Shown piece by piece: positions 2,747 to 9,844 of a stretch of DNA of 32,871 bases (its first letter is position 1; every line of letters begins with the position of its first letter). The stretch lies in IMG/VR virus record IMGVR_UViG_3300010430_000308, positions 1-32,871 of that record; one strand, written 5' to 3'. Both the position numbers and the translations under genes were made by a program. Under the pieces are notes generated by a model. That model saw nothing but the letters and a program-made list of their open reading frames with translations, was not told the origin of the DNA and did not search any database. The DNA comes from a virus.

Positions 2747-3319
2747 ATGACCTGTATAGTTGGAATTGTGGATGATAGCACTGTGCATATCGGATGCGAC
2801 AGTATGAGCGGTTACGAAAATAATTGTACTTTTCATCCGAGAAAAAAAATATTCAAAAAAGACGATATGTTTTTATTCGGTATCTGCGGCAGTTACGCTG
2901 TTGCGGATGTGATTGAACATTTATTTTATCCGCCTAAATTACCCGAAAACCAAAACGCTGCTGTTTATATGAGGGTAAAGTTTATTCCTGAGCTCAGGCG
3001 CTGTTTAGAGGATTATGGAGTAGTAAAACATAATGAAGGTTCAAAAATATTCCCCGCGTCCTTTCTTATCGGTTTTGACGGCGTGTTGTTTTTAGTCCAA
3101 AATGATTTCTCAGTTCTTGAAATTACAGAAAGTGGCGGCGCAGTGGGTTCTGGTGAAGTATCGGCCAATGCTGTTTTGTTCGACTATCACAAACACCGCC
3201 CGGAATCTGTTAAAGCTACAGATAAGCTTAAGGCCGCACTAGAGGCTTCTGGCTATTGTGTTTTGGATGTTGGTGGTGATTTACACTTCGACAGCGTGAC
3301 AAAAATTTCATGTAAATAA
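2747..3319 (+). CDS. HslV/proteasome-like Ntn hydrolase
   Basis: The protein starts MTCIVGIVDD. Removing Met would expose Thr, the nucleophile of 20S-beta/HslV peptidases. In mature numbering Thr1, Asp17 (HIGCDS) and Lys33 (HPRKKIF) fall exactly at the family's catalytic positions. GAVGSGEVSANA further on matches the conserved Gly-Ser-Gly turn. The length of 190 residues is close to HslV. No HslU-like or other ATPase is visible here, so it may act alone, use a host unfoldase, or process a small phage substrate such as a scaffold; all of these are inference. GGAGG at 2729-2733 is rather distant from the ATG, but Thr at position 2 fixes the start. Confidence 0.85.
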   Translation: MTCIVGIVDDSTVHIGCDSMSGYENNCTFHPRKKIFKKDDMFLFGICGSYAVADVIEHLFYPPKLPENQNAAVYMRVKFIPELRRCLEDYGVVKHNEGSKIFPASFLIGFDGVLFLVQNDFSVLEITESGGAVGSGEVSANAVLFDYHKHRPESVKATDKLKAALEASGYCVLDVGGDLHFDSVTKISCK

Positions 3320-3351: not shown

Positions 3352-3684
3352 ATGTTTGTAACGAGAAAGAAATATGACGCTCTTAGAGAGAAGCTGGAGG
3401 ACCGGATCGAAAAACATGTTTCTGATTTCGCTTATACGTCAAATATTCTAAATAAGCGATCTCATGACTTAACCCTTGCCAATGGTCAATTGAAATTCAA
3501 TTTGGCTGAGCTTGAAAGGGTGAAGAAGGCTAAGGGAATATCTGATAAGCGTGTCGCAGGGATGACCTCTCAAAGGAAAGCGTTGCAGGAGAAAATCCTG
3601 AAGCTGGAAAGCATTTCTGATCTCAAGAAACTGCAGAAACAAATCAAGGCTTCAATGCCCCATATGACAAAAAGGAAGAAATAA
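3352..3684 (+). CDS. Coiled-coil hypothetical protein
   Basis: AAGGAGA precedes ATG 3352. The 110-residue product is almost entirely charged helix with heptad-like Leu spacing (LREKLEDRIEKH, LKKLQKQIKAS) and a basic C-terminus, MTKRKK. It abuts the GapR gene with no gap (stop 3682-3684, ATG 3685), so the two are likely co-translated. A DNA- or partner-binding coiled coil is plausible, but no family is recognised. Confidence 0.6.
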   Translation: MFVTRKKYDALREKLEDRIEKHVSDFAYTSNILNKRSHDLTLANGQLKFNLAELERVKKAKGISDKRVAGMTSQRKALQEKILKLESISDLKKLQKQIKASMPHMTKRKK

Positions 3685-3945
3685 ATGACACAAGATAACG
3701 CAACAAAACAGCGTGTAAAATCATTTGTAGAACGCATCGAGCGTCTCGAGGCTGAAAAGCTTGAACTCTCAGAGGATATCAAGGAATTGTATTCCGAAGC
3801 CAAGGGAACCGGATTTGACGTCAAGGCTTTGAAGCGGATAGTTAAGCTGAGGGCGTCTGATAAGAATAAGTTGCAGGAGGAAGCGGCTATCTTGCAGCTG
3901 TACGCAGAGGCAATTGATATGCCGTTATTCGGGTTGTTGGTTTAA
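3685..3945 (+). CDS. gapR: GapR family (DUF2312) DNA-binding protein
   Basis: The 86-residue protein matches the DUF2312/GapR pattern nearly end to end: FVERIERLEAEK (residues 14-25), then IKELYSEAKGTGFDVKALKR (32-51), then IVKLR and LQLYAEAIDMPL. GapR is a nucleoid-associated protein of alphaproteobacteria that encircles overtwisted AT-rich DNA and helps replication and segregation. The length is close to host GapR. A phage copy could handle supercoils during phage replication or act on the host nucleoid. Family assignment is strong and the phage role is inferred. Confidence 0.9.
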   Translation: MTQDNATKQRVKSFVERIERLEAEKLELSEDIKELYSEAKGTGFDVKALKRIVKLRASDKNKLQEEAAILQLYAEAIDMPLFGLLV

Positions 3946-3978
3946 GAGTTGTTAATAAATCTACAAAGGAGAAGTAAA

Positions 3979-4419
3979 ATGACTGCAAGATTATTCCAAA
4001 ACCCGGATGGTGCGAGTGCTTCAGCACGCGCTGTTCTGGCTTATCTGTCTGGATATGAAAGAATAGAAAAAAGCTGGTGTCGCGATGTCAATATGTCTTT
4101 AGCAGAACCTTCGGTCGCACGTTGGGAAAATTGCCGAGAACAAGGTTATGTTGTGTATATGCGGGACTATACCTATACAAAGCAAATCAATATAGCGTTC
4201 TTTGGGCATCGCAACAGCACTAATCTGTGTTGTGTCGTTTTCGAAGGAAATACAATTAATTCGCCTACGATAAACGATGTGCACGTAACACACCCGTACT
4301 GGATCAAAGGTGAAGCTGATTATACTGTGGAGTATGAGGGCGCGGAAGAGATGGCAAGTTTCATATTTCAAAAATTAAAAAAGTTTTGGGTAGAAAATAA
4401 CACAGGAGAAATGAAATGA
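3979..4419 (+). CDS. Hypothetical protein (146 aa)
   Basis: ATG 3979 follows AAAGGAG and is preferred over an in-frame TTG at 3949. The product has three Cys in its central part, many aromatic residues (YVVYMRDYTYTKQ) and a helical, Lys-rich end, with no recognised family. An acidic segment, EYEGAEEMA, lies near the C-terminus. It overlaps the next gene through ATGA at 4416-4419. Confidence 0.6.
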   Translation: MTARLFQNPDGASASARAVLAYLSGYERIEKSWCRDVNMSLAEPSVARWENCREQGYVVYMRDYTYTKQINIAFFGHRNSTNLCCVVFEGNTINSPTINDVHVTHPYWIKGEADYTVEYEGAEEMASFIFQKLKKFWVENNTGEMK

Positions 4420-4484
4420 TTGATAAACTAAAAGAAGAAATTGAAGACAAAAAGGCTGAGCTAAAGGCACTGGAGGGTGAGTTG
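4416..4484 (+). repeat. Direct repeat, copy 1 (coding)
   Basis: This 69-base stretch encodes the coiled-coil start of the gene and is repeated in frame at 4707-4775, 291 bases (97 codons) later. The first 26 bases of the two copies are identical, and most later differences are synonymous or conservative. This points to a fairly recent tandem duplication. Confidence 0.75.
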
Positions 4485-5192
4485 CTGTGCATACAGTCCG
4501 AAGAATACATAAGAATATTTGGTGTCAGCCTGAAATTTGGCGACACGCCATCAACCCCTGAAAAAGAAGCGATTCGTGAGGCTTTTATAAAAGGCAAAAT
4601 AGATAAATATGAATTCGTTGATCGTTCAGAGAAGTATATTAAAGATCGTGGCTTAGCGAAAGCCGCAGGTCCGTATCCTTATCTAAAGGAAGTGATTGGA
4701 AAGAAAATGATTGATAAACTAAAAGAAGAAATCGAAAACAAAAAGGCTGAGTTGCAGGCCTTAGAGGCTGAGCTGAATAATGAGCTTGAGGCCTCGAAAA
4801 ATGCACGGTGGCCTAAGAAAGGCGATCTTTGTTATGGTGTAACGGAATACGGCAATGGCCTAAGCTTAGACCATGCATCGGACTTACCCCCGCTTGATCC
4901 AGTATTTAAAACAGAGGAACGCGCAGAATTATACCTTAAAATTGTGCGCCGTGTTCAAGAGCTTATCGGTGATTGGAAAGCTGACTGGGGCGATGGAGAT
5001 CAGGCAAAATGGTATATCGGGTTTTTCCATGGAATCCTTGAGGACGGTTCCTCTAACTATATTGCTATGATAGAAGCCTCGGGCCTTAAAGCCCAAGGTG
5101 TCACCTATATGACCGAGGAAGCCGCACAAGCGCTTATCAAAGAATTTGGCGATGATCTTAAAATCTGGATAAATGGCGGGGACGCGACATGA
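4416..5192 (+). CDS. Two-module protein with duplicated coiled-coil start
   Basis: The first 23 residues (MIDKLKEEIEDKKAELKALE and on) recur almost unchanged at residues 98-120, with an ATG at the same place (4707). The gene therefore looks like two related genes fused in frame, each starting with a coiled coil. The second module ends in a soluble region (residues about 130-258) with ERAELYLKIVRRVQELIGDW and DGDQAKWYIGF, a small domain pattern seen in many phage hypothetical proteins. Function unknown. GGAAAG before ATG 4707 could allow a separate 161-residue product. Coupled by ATGA at both ends. Confidence 0.65.
   Translation: MIDKLKEEIEDKKAELKALEGELLCIQSEEYIRIFGVSLKFGDTPSTPEKEAIREAFIKGKIDKYEFVDRSEKYIKDRGLAKAAGPYPYLKEVIGKKMIDKLKEEIENKKAELQALEAELNNELEASKNARWPKKGDLCYGVTEYGNGLSLDHASDLPPLDPVFKTEERAELYLKIVRRVQELIGDWKADWGDGDQAKWYIGFFHGILEDGSSNYIAMIEASGLKAQGVTYMTEEAAQALIKEFGDDLKIWINGGDAT
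4707..4775 (+). repeat. Direct repeat, copy 2 (coding)
   Basis: Second copy of the 4416-4484 segment. It retains an ATG at its first codon preceded by GGAAAG, so it may be the original start of the downstream module. Confidence 0.75.
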
Positions 5193-5497
5193 ACGAAAAA
5201 ATGAGACAGATAGATAGGGCGCGTGAGGAACTGATTTTTATATGCGGCCTTTACAATTTAAATTATAAGGAAATCATCTCAGAGGTGACTTACCCAAAGT
5301 CTGACCGGAGATTCGCAAAAATAGTCGAGGCCAGAAAGAGGATTGCTTGGAGGTTAAAATTTCTTGGGTTTTCATATCCTGTGATCGGAAACGTTTTAAA
5401 CAAAGATCACTCTACAATTATTTATTATTTAAATGATCTTGAAAAAAGGGACGCCAGCCTCAAGAAGGACAGATTAGGCGGTAAGTTATTGGATTAA
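5189..5497 (+). CDS. DnaA domain IV-like DNA-binding protein
   Basis: The 102-residue protein resembles only the C-terminal DNA-binding domain of the initiator DnaA. It has an entry helix, then EARKRIAWRL (residues 47-56), a turn and helix PVIGNVLNKDH, and KDHSTII (72-78), which matches the DnaA signature that reads DnaA boxes. The AAA+ ATPase and oligomerisation domains are absent. It could bind DnaA-box-like sites at a phage origin or compete with host DnaA; both are inference. It begins with an ATGA overlap and ends just before a promoter-like site. Confidence 0.8.
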   Translation: MNEKMRQIDRAREELIFICGLYNLNYKEIISEVTYPKSDRRFAKIVEARKRIAWRLKFLGFSYPVIGNVLNKDHSTIIYYLNDLEKRDASLKKDRLGGKLLD

Positions 5498-5517
5498 TAT
5501 TTGTTTTTGTGTATAAT
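5489..5517 (+). promoter_or_regulatory. Promoter-like site before membrane protein
   Basis: TTGGAT (5489-5494) and a perfect TATAAT (5512-5517) are separated by 17 bases. The -10 sits in TTTTTGTGTATAAT, similar to sites at 6121-6133 and 6285-6296. The site lies across the end of the DnaA-like gene and a 48-base gap, 29 bases before ATG 5546. Confidence 0.55.
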
Positions 5518-5545
5518 GGCGAAAACATGAGGGGGTTTATTAGAT

Positions 5546-6100
5546 ATGTTTTTATCAATCTTGTATAAATCATTTTTGACAGTCTTGGGAGCGGTTATGT
5601 TCCGAATACGCGGGGGACTAGCCCCGGCTTTACCGAGGCCCTTCGATCAATTGCTTTTCGCATTACCATTCGGCGCAATAGTTTTCAAGGCCAGTGATAG
5701 AAATGTATGGTGGTTTTTGGGTGTAATGTCCATAACCACACTCGCATTAACAACGGGGCACGGGCAATACTTCAACCTTGGGCGTATAACCCATGAGGGG
5801 AGCCCCGAGACGCTCGATTTTATTGTGCAGTTGTTTTTTGGGAAAGACCCGGGAGACAGCTTTTGGAGAGATGCCTTTGGGTTAGCATTAACTGGCCTAA
5901 TTGTAACGCTGCCCTGTGGGATCGCGCTATCTATACTCAAGCACCCGTGGGTAGGCTCAATCATCGCCATAAGCGGAACACTCAAGGCTCTGGCGTATTA
6001 TATTTCTTGGGAAATGGGGTATAATACCGAATTAGGGGAATATCTAACGGGCGCATTCCTTTGGTTACCAGTCATATTGCTTTGGAATAAGATTAAATAA
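5546..6100 (+). CDS. Polytopic membrane protein
   Basis: The 184-residue protein has several hydrophobic segments: residues about 1-17, 34-50 and 54-70, then about 110-130, 132-148 and 165-180. A conserved-looking loop, TTGHGQYFNLGR, links the halves. A GAGGGGG site precedes ATG 5546. Similar multi-helix proteins occur in phages next to terminase genes without a known role. It could be a holin-like or host-envelope protein, but it is far from the lysis cassette, so I do not call it a holin. A promoter-like site sits directly upstream. Confidence 0.7.
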   Translation: MFLSILYKSFLTVLGAVMFRIRGGLAPALPRPFDQLLFALPFGAIVFKASDRNVWWFLGVMSITTLALTTGHGQYFNLGRITHEGSPETLDFIVQLFFGKDPGDSFWRDAFGLALTGLIVTLPCGIALSILKHPWVGSIIAISGTLKALAYYISWEMGYNTELGEYLTGAFLWLPVILLWNKIK

Positions 6101-6107
6101 TCTCTAA

Positions 6108-6133
6108 TTGACTTATTGTTGTTTTTGTATAAA
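6108..6133 (+). promoter_or_regulatory. Weak promoter-like site before GcrA-like gene
   Basis: TTGACT (6108-6113) and TATAAA (6128-6133) lie in the 44-base gap before ATG 6145. The 14-base spacing is short for sigma70. The stretch TTGTTTTTGTATAA closely matches the one around 5500-5516, which is the main reason to list it. Confidence 0.35.
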
Positions 6134-6144
6134 TTCATTTAACT

Positions 6145-6342
6145 ATGAAATATAGTGCAGAAGCGTTTTTTAAAAATATAGAACTGGGTGGGTGCAAATA
6201 TATATATGGAGGACTAAAAGAAATGGGATCTATATGCACCCTTGAAAGGCAAAAGGGTAACCAATATTGCGCAAAACATCAAGATTTGTGTATAATAGAA
6301 CCCAAAGATATTAATCTGCATGGAATTGATTTATTGGTGTGA
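6145..6342 (+). CDS. GcrA C-terminal-like zinc protein
   Basis: The 65-residue protein has C17-x13-C31-x10-C42-x2-H45 with the text CKYIYGG, then GNQYCAKH. This follows the pattern at the C-terminus of the alphaproteobacterial cell-cycle regulator GcrA (C-K-W-P-x-G ... C-x10-C-x2-H). The N-terminal helix-turn-helix of GcrA is missing, so this is a stand-alone domain. In GcrA the C-terminal region contacts the primary sigma factor, so a phage protein of this shape could modulate host transcription; this is inference. No clear ribosome site precedes ATG 6145, and a promoter-like sequence lies just upstream. Confidence 0.65.
   Translation: MKYSAEAFFKNIELGGCKYIYGGLKEMGSICTLERQKGNQYCAKHQDLCIIEPKDINLHGIDLLV
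6267..6296 (+). promoter_or_regulatory. Promoter-like site before terminase genes
   Basis: TTGCGC (6267-6272) and a perfect TATAAT (6291-6296) have 18-base spacing. They lie inside the end of the GcrA-like gene and 50 bases before the terminase small subunit. TTTGTGTATAAT is identical over 12 bases to the site at 5506-5517. It may start the packaging/late transcript. Confidence 0.5.
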
Positions 6343-6345
6343 CGT

Positions 6346-6840
6346 ATGCGAAAAGCTTCACCCAAAATGCGTACAACAGGAAAGAGCGGGTTCATGAAAA
6401 AAAACAAAGATGTCGGGAGGCCTAAGGCTTTCGAAACCCCCCAAAAGTTGAAAGATAAATGCTCTAAATATTTTGCGTTCTGTGAGGAGCAAGGCAAAGC
6501 GAAAACAATGGCGGGGCTTATATGTTTTCTGGATATATGCGATGATACTTTTGGTAACTATCTCAAGGGCTTATATGACGCAAGTTGCGACCCTCAAAAA
6601 GACAATTTTTCCGAAACGATCAAAAAAGCTAGGAAATTTATTGAAAATGATAAGCTTGATAGAGCCCTAAGGGGCGAGTACGTCCCGTCTGTTGCTATAT
6701 TCGATTTGAAGAACAATCACGGATACGCGGATAAGGTTGAACAAACAACCACACATAAGGGCGAGGCTGAGGTTTCGCTTAATTTCGTGGACGCAGAAGA
6801 AGCGCAACGGGCATATCAGAAAGCGTTAAGGGATGAATGA
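6346..6840 (+). CDS. terS: Terminase small subunit
   Basis: The protein contains the small-terminase pattern in order: GRPKAFETPQKL, then TMAGLICFLDI with helix-turn-helix character, then ETIKKARKFIE and AIFDLKNNHGYADK. It recognises the packaging site on phage DNA and loads the large subunit. The large subunit follows with an 8-base overlap, confirming context. Start is uncertain: ATG 6346 (164 aa) lies 3 bases after the previous stop, while ATG 6394 gives 148 aa, has AGGAAAGAG upstream and begins MKKNKDVGRPK, closer to usual family starts. Confidence 0.9.
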   Translation: MRKASPKMRTTGKSGFMKKNKDVGRPKAFETPQKLKDKCSKYFAFCEEQGKAKTMAGLICFLDICDDTFGNYLKGLYDASCDPQKDNFSETIKKARKFIENDKLDRALRGEYVPSVAIFDLKNNHGYADKVEQTTTHKGEAEVSLNFVDAEEAQRAYQKALRDE

Positions 6841-8455
6841 TAAGGTATGGCCGCCTGATTACAGCGATGAAATAACGCGCAGGATAAAGCTTCTAAGAAA
6901 ATTAAATTCCGATCCTGACTTGCGCCACGCCGTAATGTCACATTATAAAAACAATCCTATCGACTGGATTAATGACTGGTCGATAACATATGATCCACGC
7001 AACAAATCCCCGAAACCTAAAATGCTCCCGTTCGTTCTTTTCCCGAAGCAGGAGGAGCTTATTTTATTCCTGCTCTCTTGCATAGATGAGGGGGAAAGCG
7101 GACTTGTGGAGAAATGCCGGGACATGGGGGCGAGCTGGGTATGTTGCGCGTTCTCTGTATGGTTGTGGATATTTAAGGATGGGGCAAGTGTCGGCTGGGG
7201 GTCACGCAAAGAGATGCTTGTCGATAAATTAGGCGATCCAGACTCAATCTTTCAGAAAATGCGTATAATCATACAAAACTTGCCTTTGTGGATGCTCCCT
7301 GATGGATTCAGCGAGCGTGAACACAGTAATTACATGAAACTTATAAATCCCGAAAGCGGCGCGAATATTGTTGGGGAGGCCGGGGATAATATCGGGCGTG
7401 GTGGTCGCTCCATGATTTATTTTAAAGATGAATCCGCTCATTACGAAAGACCGGAACTGATAGAGGCGGCTTTGGGGGACAATACGGACGTCCAGATTGA
7501 CATATCAAGCGTGCGCGGTACAGGTAACGTGTTTTATAGGCGTAGGATGGCCGGGCATATTTGGGAAAAAGATTCTGATATGGAAAGGGGGCGGACTAGA
7601 ATTTTTATCATGGACTGGAGGGACCACCCGCTCAAAACTCAAGATTGGTACGACAGGCGGCGTGCGAAGTGGGAAAGGGATGGGTTGCTGCATATCTTCT
7701 CTCAAGAAGTGGACCGTGATTATACGAGTTCTATGGATCGTATTGTAATACCCCAAAAATGGGTTAAGGCGGCGGTTGACGCTCATATTAAGCTGGGCAT
7801 ATCGGAAGACGGCGAAAAAGTAGCGGGCCTTGATGTGGCGGACGAGGGCGGCGATAAAAACGCTCTATCAATTAAATACGGGGTTATCCTTAAATATTGC
7901 GAGCACTGGGGTGAGGGGGATGTCGGGAATTCCGCGCGGCGTTCTTTCTCAAAATCAATGGAGATGGGCTGCACTTCATTTAATTACGATAGTGTCGGTG
8001 TAGGCTCCGGGGTTAAATCTGAGGCGAACCGGATGCGTGATGACGGTGTCTTGTCGCAAAATTTGATTATCAGTCCGTGGAACGGCGGGGCGTCTCCTCT
8101 CAATAAGGAGGAGCACTTAATCCAGAATGACCGAAATTCCCCGATTATTGGAGATTTTTTCTTAAACTTAAAAGCTCAAGCTTGGTGGAATCTACGCACT
8201 CGTTTTGAGAATACATATAAGGCAATTGTGGAAGGAGAAGACTACCCTCACGAGGAGCTTATAAGCCTCCCTAGTAGCTTACCGCGCTTGCATGAAATTA
8301 TGATGGAGCTATCACAACCACAAGTAATATATGATGGAAAGGGAAAGCTAAAGATCGATAAAAAGCCCGATGGCTCGAAATCCCCCAATCTGGCTGATTC
8401 TATTGTAATGTGCTACACATCAAATAAAATTATTTCTATCCTTGATGCTATATGA
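6833..8455 (+). CDS. terL: Terminase large subunit
   Basis: The 540-residue packaging motor has an ATPase domain followed by an RNase H-like nuclease. A deviant Walker A lies at EKCRDMGASW (residues 93-102) and Walker B at MIYFKDE (194-200, Asp199/Glu200). Nuclease acidic residues are Asp334 in GLDVADEGGD, Asp386 in NYDSVGVGSG and Asp522 in NLADSIV. It pumps DNA into the prohead through the portal and cuts the concatemer. Length and motif order are normal and no truncation is seen. Its start overlaps the small-subunit gene. Confidence 0.95.
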   Translation: MNDKVWPPDYSDEITRRIKLLRKLNSDPDLRHAVMSHYKNNPIDWINDWSITYDPRNKSPKPKMLPFVLFPKQEELILFLLSCIDEGESGLVEKCRDMGASWVCCAFSVWLWIFKDGASVGWGSRKEMLVDKLGDPDSIFQKMRIIIQNLPLWMLPDGFSEREHSNYMKLINPESGANIVGEAGDNIGRGGRSMIYFKDESAHYERPELIEAALGDNTDVQIDISSVRGTGNVFYRRRMAGHIWEKDSDMERGRTRIFIMDWRDHPLKTQDWYDRRRAKWERDGLLHIFSQEVDRDYTSSMDRIVIPQKWVKAAVDAHIKLGISEDGEKVAGLDVADEGGDKNALSIKYGVILKYCEHWGEGDVGNSARRSFSKSMEMGCTSFNYDSVGVGSGVKSEANRMRDDGVLSQNLIISPWNGGASPLNKEEHLIQNDRNSPIIGDFFLNLKAQAWWNLRTRFENTYKAIVEGEDYPHEELISLPSSLPRLHEIMMELSQPQVIYDGKGKLKIDKKPDGSKSPNLADSIVMCYTSNKIISILDAI

Positions 8456-8479: not shown

Positions 8480-9844
8480 ATGGGCCAGCTTGAACAGGGC
8501 GAAGAAATATTAAATGAAAAAGATGGCGGTCAAGAGGTTAGCAATTCGTTAACCGAGCTTTTTACGTCTTTAACCCGTGGCGGAAACTTGGGGGGCTCTC
8601 AGCTATCCCAAACGGACACGCAATATTTAAATCTTCGCTATTATCTTATATCGAATGATAGAAACTTACTATCATGGATGTATATGGAGCATGGGATTGT
8701 CCAAACATTAGTGGATCAGCCCGTCGATGATGCGTTTAGGGAGGGATTCAAATTAAAGACGAATCTTTTAGACCCTGATCAAATTCGAGAGCTTGAGCTG
8801 TACATGGAAAAAGACCGTGTCACAGAGTGCATCAAGACCTCATTAAAGTGGGTTAGACTTTATGGCGGCGGTGCCATCATTATTATGACAGATCAAAAAC
8901 CCGACACCGAGTTAAATATCGAGTCATTAGACGAATCATCCTGCCTTGAGTTTCGTTCGGCTGATTTATGGGAGTTGGTGGGGGATAAGCTGGGCACCGA
9001 GGGGTATTACAATGTCGAGCCGGACTTTTACAACTTTTACGGTCAACGAATCCATAAGAGCCGCGTTTATCGTCTGGAAGGTAAGCAGGCCCCATCGTTC
9101 TTGAAGCGCCGCCTTAGGGGTTGGGGGATGTCTGAGCTTGAAAAGCTAGTGCGCTCGATCAATCAATACATGAAAAATCAAAACGTTATTTTTGAATTGA
9201 TGGATGAGGCCAAAGTCGATATTTATCAGATCGAAGGGTTTAATTCAGCTTTAATGACAAAAAACGGAACGGACTCTCTCTCGAAGCGTATCCAGCTAGC
9301 GAACCAAATGAAGAATTTCCAGAATGCGCTAACGATGGATACGAGGGACGCATACTCTCAAAAGCAAATGAATTTCACAGGCCTTTCTGAATTGCTGAAA
9401 CAAATACGTGAGGGCATCGCCGCTGATTTAAAAATGCCTGTCACAAAGTTGTTTGGAATCTCCTCAGCAGGGTTTAATTCTGGTGAGGACGATATTGAAA
9501 ACTACAACTCGATGATTGAGAGCGAGATACGATCAAAGATTAAGTTTATTGTTCTGGATGTAGTGAATATCGTATGCCAGAAATTATTTGGGTTTATTCC
9601 AGAAGACTTAGACCTAGAGTTCCCCGAACTCCGTATGATGTCTACTGAGCAAGAGGAGATTGTAAAGACAAACCAATACAACAGAATTATATCTTCGTAT
9701 CAATCAGGGCTTATCAGCGGTCAAGAAGCTAAGCAGTCTTTAAACCAAGGTTCTTTATTGCCTATCATGATTGATGAAGATGAAGAAGTCGAGGCCCCTA
9801 TTCAAGGGGATTTTATAGCAAAAAATAAAGGAGTGGATGGATAA
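8480..9844 (+). CDS. Portal protein (DUF1073/Phage_portal_3 type)
   Basis: The 454-residue protein follows the large terminase and has portal-type landmarks: YLISNDRNLLSWMYMEHG, then VDQPVDDAFREG, then RLYGGGAIII and KLFGISSAGFNSGEDDIENY. These match the DUF1073 portal family. It forms the dodecameric vertex ring through which DNA is packaged. The DUF1073 label is sometimes linked to anti-CBASS Acb1 in databases, but length and position here support a portal. The C-terminal 60 residues are acidic. A GGGA site precedes ATG 8480. Confidence 0.9.
   Translation: MGQLEQGEEILNEKDGGQEVSNSLTELFTSLTRGGNLGGSQLSQTDTQYLNLRYYLISNDRNLLSWMYMEHGIVQTLVDQPVDDAFREGFKLKTNLLDPDQIRELELYMEKDRVTECIKTSLKWVRLYGGGAIIIMTDQKPDTELNIESLDESSCLEFRSADLWELVGDKLGTEGYYNVEPDFYNFYGQRIHKSRVYRLEGKQAPSFLKRRLRGWGMSELEKLVRSINQYMKNQNVIFELMDEAKVDIYQIEGFNSALMTKNGTDSLSKRIQLANQMKNFQNALTMDTRDAYSQKQMNFTGLSELLKQIREGIAADLKMPVTKLFGISSAGFNSGEDDIENYNSMIESEIRSKIKFIVLDVVNIVCQKLFGFIPEDLDLEFPELRMMSTEQEEIVKTNQYNRIISSYQSGLISGQEAKQSLNQGSLLPIMIDEDEEVEAPIQGDFIAKNKGVDG

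Follow-up and report, generated by a model that had tools for sequence, protein, structure and literature searches.

Introduction

Alphaproteobacterial phages infect cells that couple both replication and transcription to their cell cycle. In Caulobacter, GafY, a protein like DnaA domain IV (DnaA-IV), binds RpoD (sigma70) and together with GafZ activates a gene-transfer-agent operon beginning near terminase (PMC11150451); Rhodobacter GafA has a DnaA-IV-type domain at its N terminus and binds upstream of the terminase small subunit gene, TerS (PMC9638019). The sigma-interacting domain (SID) of GcrA binds sigma domain 2 (PMC7403470), and phiCbK phages carry a full GcrA that is thought to alter the host replicative state (PMC3556154). 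GapR has a known role in replication, and a 2025 paper presented the GapR of Erythrobacter phage R34L1 as the first phage-borne one (PMC12185513). We describe a locus of the virus IMGVR_UViG_3300010430_000308 (IMG/VR) that encodes a GapR, a DnaA-IV without the rest of DnaA, and what we take to be a GcrA-type SID without the rest of GcrA. The window is the whole 32,871-nt stretch of this record, and gene coordinates refer to it.

Our reading, tentative and at somewhat less than even confidence, is that the three genes are accessory DNA-topology and transcription factors that would serve the phage's own genome. Phage GapR, phage GcrA (PMC3556154) and stand-alone DnaA-IV (GafY; phrog_27829) were already known singly. 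No report of stand-alone SIDs or of the three-domain combination was found among open-licence papers, and both appear to be undescribed.

Identification of the three domains

GapR. The first protein matches PF10073 (GapR_DNA-bd) at 97.4 bits against a curated cut-off of 22.6, over positions 2-72 of 72, and phmmer finds the GapR structures of the PDB with a best E-value of 3e-22 (chains 6cg8, 6jyk and 6ozz, E about 1e-22). Judged by these matches it is a full family member with a complete domain, in agreement with an earlier sequence-only reading of the window, which had placed a GapR homologue at this gene. Its best relatives, from phages of alphaproteobacteria (Azospirillum phage Cd, 66%) and from alphaproteobacterial genomes, suggest that the host too is an alphaproteobacterium. 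GapR is common in phages (149 sequenced phage records). In rhizobial phages or prophages (L024, L025, L027, L029, L195, L208) the domain stands at the N terminus of open reading frames (ORFs) of 281-397 amino acids, fused to a further partner, and in the virus or prophage contigs L058-L061 a full-length DnaA (domains I, III and IV) closely follows GapR (GapR at about 8000 in this set; at 2074-2343 in L060). Four phages named for Microcystis or Synechococcus (PP395640, PP438406, PP438417, PP438432) carry GapR or GcrA; their true hosts may be associated alphaproteobacteria.

DnaA domain IV. The second protein (102 amino acids) scores 31.1 bits (E 2.4e-7) against PF08299, marginally short of the curated 31.5-bit cut-off. 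A profile of this protein and 22 phage relatives matched only DnaA structures in the PDB (1j1v, E 4e-26). Its AlphaFold (AF2) model has a predicted local distance difference test score (pLDDT) of 82, and the top fold match is the DnaA DNA-binding domain 3pvp, with probability 0.99 and a weak Foldseek E of 0.26. Predicted fold and family profile thus both fit DnaA, and the claim that domain IV stands here by itself was borne out: domain I and the ATPase domain III are not in the protein. The protein could bind a specific site and, because the ATPase domain is absent, would be unable to start replication unaided. With residue roles taken in part from PMC9638019, the alignment shows that the base-contacting residues R399, P423, D433, H434 and T436 are kept and that T435 is replaced by Ser (a D-H-S-T motif), but R442 and K443, which contact the backbone, are not retained. 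Stand-alone DnaA-IV also occurs in a different phage group (L003, L004, L007, L008, L009), shortly after a small VRR-NUC-nuclease-like gene and a helicase-like gene. Two identical copies of TTTGTGTATAAT lie at 5506-5517, before the membrane-protein gene, and at 6285-6296, which is 50 bp upstream of TerS; they overlap a relaxed DnaA box and a -10-like TATAAT hexamer. We rejected them as a meaningful site, 12-mer repeats being expected by chance at such a size.

Sigma-interacting domain. The third protein (65 amino acids) is the weakest of the three assignments. Pfam GcrA (PF07750) gives no match at E up to 10, and single-sequence searches found no relatives; only profiles picked them up. Profiles were built from chromosomal GcrA of alphaproteobacterial genomes, and phage GcrA and SIDs were then added. 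Under the chromosomal-only profile the protein ranks first among the window ORFs at 11.5 bits, a score reached by one of 5000 shuffles, and a leave-one-out profile (phage SIDs in, the window protein and its nearest relative out) gives it an E-value of 1.4e-5 in a set of 26,334 ORFs. The motif is of the CCCH type (C17-C31-C42-H45), and the protein holds this motif only, the N-terminal DNA-binding domain of GcrA being absent. The nearest relative (L080, G020) matches positions 103-148 of Pfam GcrA at E 5e-5 and the GcrA-SID crystal structure 5yix at E 0.02. We take the window protein as a probable stand-alone SID, as had been proposed; others are found in Microcystis phage Mwe-JY25 (75 amino acids) and Mesorhizobium phage vB_MseS-P1. 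Matches to the TRM13 CCCH zinc finger (Pfam E 0.005) and to a PDB spider toxin were taken as chance similarities of cysteine spacing. An alternative start at Met27, which follows GGAGG and would lose the first Cys, was rejected since the CxYI.G stretch is common to the relatives.

A loose set that recurs in scattered phages

The sequence-only reading had described a cluster within 2.7 kb, just before terminase. The span and the shared + strand were confirmed, and so was the location, the DnaA-IV gene ending 0.85 kb and the SID gene 4 bp before TerS. The genes are nevertheless a loose set and no contiguous trio, because those at 3949-4419, 4416-5192 and 5546-6100 lie among them. The proximity of GapR and DnaA-IV has a p of 0.03 under uniform placement, and of 0.6 if both are confined to one third of the genome.

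A search for the same trio in related phages had been proposed as a check. Among 41 terminase-relative records, GapR is present in 5, DnaA-IV in 6 and GcrA in 2, with GapR and DnaA-IV together in none (0/41), and the idea that the trio is conserved as a module within this phage's lineage was rejected. It does occur elsewhere. All three are carried by Mesorhizobium phage vB_MseS-P1 within 4.1 kb (SID gp15, GapR gp17, a weak DnaA-IV gp23), by Caulobacter phage GB2A within 7.6 kb (a weak DnaA-IV-like gp041 with DHTT, SID gp048, GapR gp055) and by the IMG/VR virus G020, where GapR is 15 kb off on the opposite strand and the DnaA-IV and SID-only genes overlap. A GapR gene also overlaps a DnaA-IV gene in L037 and L043, with the order reversed in L043; in Agrobacterium phage 7-7-1, which was found via its SID and left out of the counts, GapR overlaps a helix-turn-helix-plus-SID gene.

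Neighbours of GapR were counted against 58 terminase-centred loci, an imperfect control. Eleven loci of sequenced phages were chosen by GapR alone, disregarding neighbours; in six of them a DnaA-IV or a SID lies no more than about 6 kb from GapR (p 0.002), always on the strand of GapR. Within 6 kb of GapR in 47 distinct IMG/VR loci, DnaA-IV is found in 5 and SID in 0 (controls 6/58, p 1). Pooled, 11/58 GapR loci have either neighbour against 6/58 control loci, a difference that is not significant (p 0.29). The grouping is not unique to the window: it is missing from the nearest relatives and recurs in scattered alphaproteobacterial phages, so that the absence from related phages that would have counted against the sequence-only reading is borne out by half.

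Possible roles

If the three serve the phage's own genome, GapR would most likely act as host GapR does, as a tetrameric clamp on overtwisted DNA in front of replication forks and RNA polymerases that aids host gyrase and topoisomerase IV, in this case on fast-copied phage DNA. DnaA-IV would most likely be a promoter-binding regulator, like GafY beside the gene-transfer-agent terminase. The SID would most likely hold domain 2 of host sigma70. Paired in trans with another protein that binds DNA, which may be DnaA-IV, it would form a split GcrA-like cofactor that increases transcription of the packaging and structural genes immediately after it. In its most specific form, DnaA-IV and SID would be a two-protein sigma70 cofactor, a GcrA with its DNA-binding half swapped for a DnaA-type one, which with GapR managing supercoils redirects the host's RNA polymerase to the late genes of the phage; this version we consider rather unlikely. 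The place just before TerS is a usual one for late activators that are small DNA-binding regulators. In two genomes (L294 and L296) GafY (115-119 amino acids, DnaA-IV) and GafZ lie directly upstream of terminase; the phage DnaA-IV profile detects these GafYs at E 5e-9 and 4e-8, and in Microcystis phage Mwe-JY13 a phage GcrA gene stands two genes before TerS. On these analogies, control of phage-gene transcription is most likely a better reading of DnaA-IV and SID than decoys directed at the host.

Several results weigh against transcriptional control. The base-reading residues are DnaA-like and not GafY-like (His434 is kept), which fits DnaA-box binding. DnaA-box-like sites are not enriched in 21 loci of phages with DnaA-IV (9 seen, 17.5 expected), and the window has 5 against 3.6 expected, with no enrichment and no cluster; DnaA-box clusters were rejected as DnaA-IV targets, and these searches of the window and loci identified no DnaA-IV binding site. 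A Pfam scan of 20 window proteins, a part of the total that includes all the neighbours, detected no GafZ (DUF6456), and terminase relatives have their DnaA-IV 5-9 kb from terminase. Structure prediction, proposed with the original reading as a check, supported DnaA-IV; for the SID it gave a poor AF2 model (pLDDT 47, built from 4 sequences). The contact of the SID with sigma70 and its partnership with DnaA-IV are both putative.

It is a distinct possibility, if well short of even, that the genes are unlinked: three common alphaproteobacterial domains that mosaic evolution has united, with separate roles and no shared programme. The three interleaved genes, the absence of the set from every terminase relative, the frequency of GapR alone in phages and the IMG/VR and pooled counts all agree with this. 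The neighbour-blind sequenced-phage loci, with their constant strand, argue for a link, as does the existence of overlapping gene pairs of every kind. The sequence-only reading had instead suggested a possible host cell-cycle takeover by competitors or decoys, a view drawn from truncation. In such a takeover DnaA-IV would fill host DnaA boxes without initiating, SID would compete with host GcrA for sigma70, and GapR would retune chromosome topology. The observation that two of the proteins are cut down to the binding part holds for DnaA-IV and SID; GapR is complete and no decoy, and truncation fits split activators equally well. Retention of the DnaA-box-reading residues and the proposed effect of the full phiCbK GcrA on host replication (PMC3556154) favour takeover, whereas R442 and K443 are lost, and full-length GcrA or DnaA, even DnaA beside GapR, is carried by other phages or prophages in a similar setting, where a decoy would not need it. 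We regard takeover by decoys as unlikely. A role for DnaA-IV in marking or melting the phage's own origin of replication, with elongation helped by GapR and the SID separate, is very improbable: the protein has no ATPase domain, and no DnaA-box cluster was found. PHROG does name its relatives DnaA-like replication initiation protein, and the overlapping GapR and DnaA-IV genes of L037 and L043 and GapR's known part in replication (PMC12185513) would suit such a role.

If GapR, DnaA-IV and GcrA-SID do form a recurring kit, it would reveal how phages connect to the cell-cycle control of their hosts and would tie the regulation of phage late genes to gene transfer agents. The split cofactor, if true, would be a phage regulatory system built entirely from host cell-cycle domains, and stand-alone SIDs would be minimal tools to study sigma70 activation. 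Since all three occur in GB2A, whose host is a laboratory Caulobacter, the question is directly testable.

Genomic context

The features ahead of and including terminase are listed in Table 1. The phage is contractile-tailed, with terminase, portal, head, sheath, tape measure, baseplate and fibre genes on the + strand. At the right end of the window, a single-stranded DNA-binding protein and an exonuclease of the YqaJ type are encoded on the - strand.

Table 1. Features of the gene block leading into terminase
Feature	Positions	Strand	Basis and remarks
HslV-like/proteasome-like peptidase	2747-3319		phrog_1040; weak Pfam Proteasome
110-aa coiled-coil-type protein	3352..3684	+	ORF; no Pfam family; stop codon abuts GapR start codon
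GapR homologue, complete domain (PF10073, UPF0335/DUF2312)	3685..3945	+	Pfam 97.4 bits; PDB GapR chains
phrog_6319-family ORF, function unassigned	3949..4419	+	PHROG E 2.8e-15; probable ATG start 3979
258-aa protein with internal duplication	4416..5192	+	ORF; two 77-nt copies
Stand-alone DnaA domain IV (DNA-binding helix-turn-helix), without ATPase domain	5189..5497	+	PF08299, profile, AF2 fold
184-aa hydrophobic protein, probably membrane	5546..6100	+	ORF; between DnaA-IV and SID genes
Probable stand-alone GcrA-type sigma-interacting domain (SID)	6145..6342	+	Leave-one-out SID profile, shuffles; no Pfam match
Terminase small subunit (TerS)	6346..6840	+	PF16677 E 4e-22, phrog_606
Terminase large subunit (TerL)	6833..8455	+	phrog_2; 53% to Rhizobium phage RHph_I65

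The ORF for the 258-aa protein contains a direct repeat of 77 nt, 84% identical, at 4408-4484 and 4699-4775. In each copy there is an in-frame ATG with an identical start, MIDKLKEEIE, and the ORF has the look of a duplicated gene fused into a single frame. The 184-aa probable membrane protein has one distant viral relative, which does not adjoin DnaA-IV or SID there and whose genome is without the three-gene set. The portal (8480-9844) is closest to that of Bdellovibrio phage phi1422 (47%) and the terminase to those of rhizobial and Pseudanabaena phages; since their closest phages differ, the genome is, by these comparisons, strongly mosaic. GANTC, the CcrM site, is rarer than expected across the window (93 against 122, standard deviation 11).

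Comparison with known systems

Caulobacter GapR (CC_3319; PF10073) is homologous over the complete domain and similar in length; the window GapR differs in being phage-borne and is known here from sequence only. Bacterial DnaA domain IV (PF08299) shares with the second protein its predicted fold and the D-H-S/T-T base-reading motif, whereas the window protein has no domains I-III for helicase loading and ATPase activity and falls just under the Pfam cut-off. Caulobacter GcrA (PF07750; SID structures 5yix and 7ye1) has the same CCCH-type motif, C-x(13-14)-C-x(9-10)-C-x2-H, with an equal total span; the putative window SID lacks the DNA-binding domain, lies below Pfam detection and reads CKYIYG for CKWPIG. 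The phiCbK-like phages likewise encode a member of the GcrA family (PMC3556154), but theirs is full-length and that of the window is the SID only. Like the window DnaA-IV, GafY and the N-terminal part of GafA (PMC11150451, PMC9638019) are small, essentially DnaA domain IV, and encoded close upstream of terminase. The window DnaA-IV keeps the DnaA-type H434 where GafY has Arg, no GafZ partner was seen among the scanned proteins, and membrane-protein and SID genes stand between DnaA-IV and terminase.

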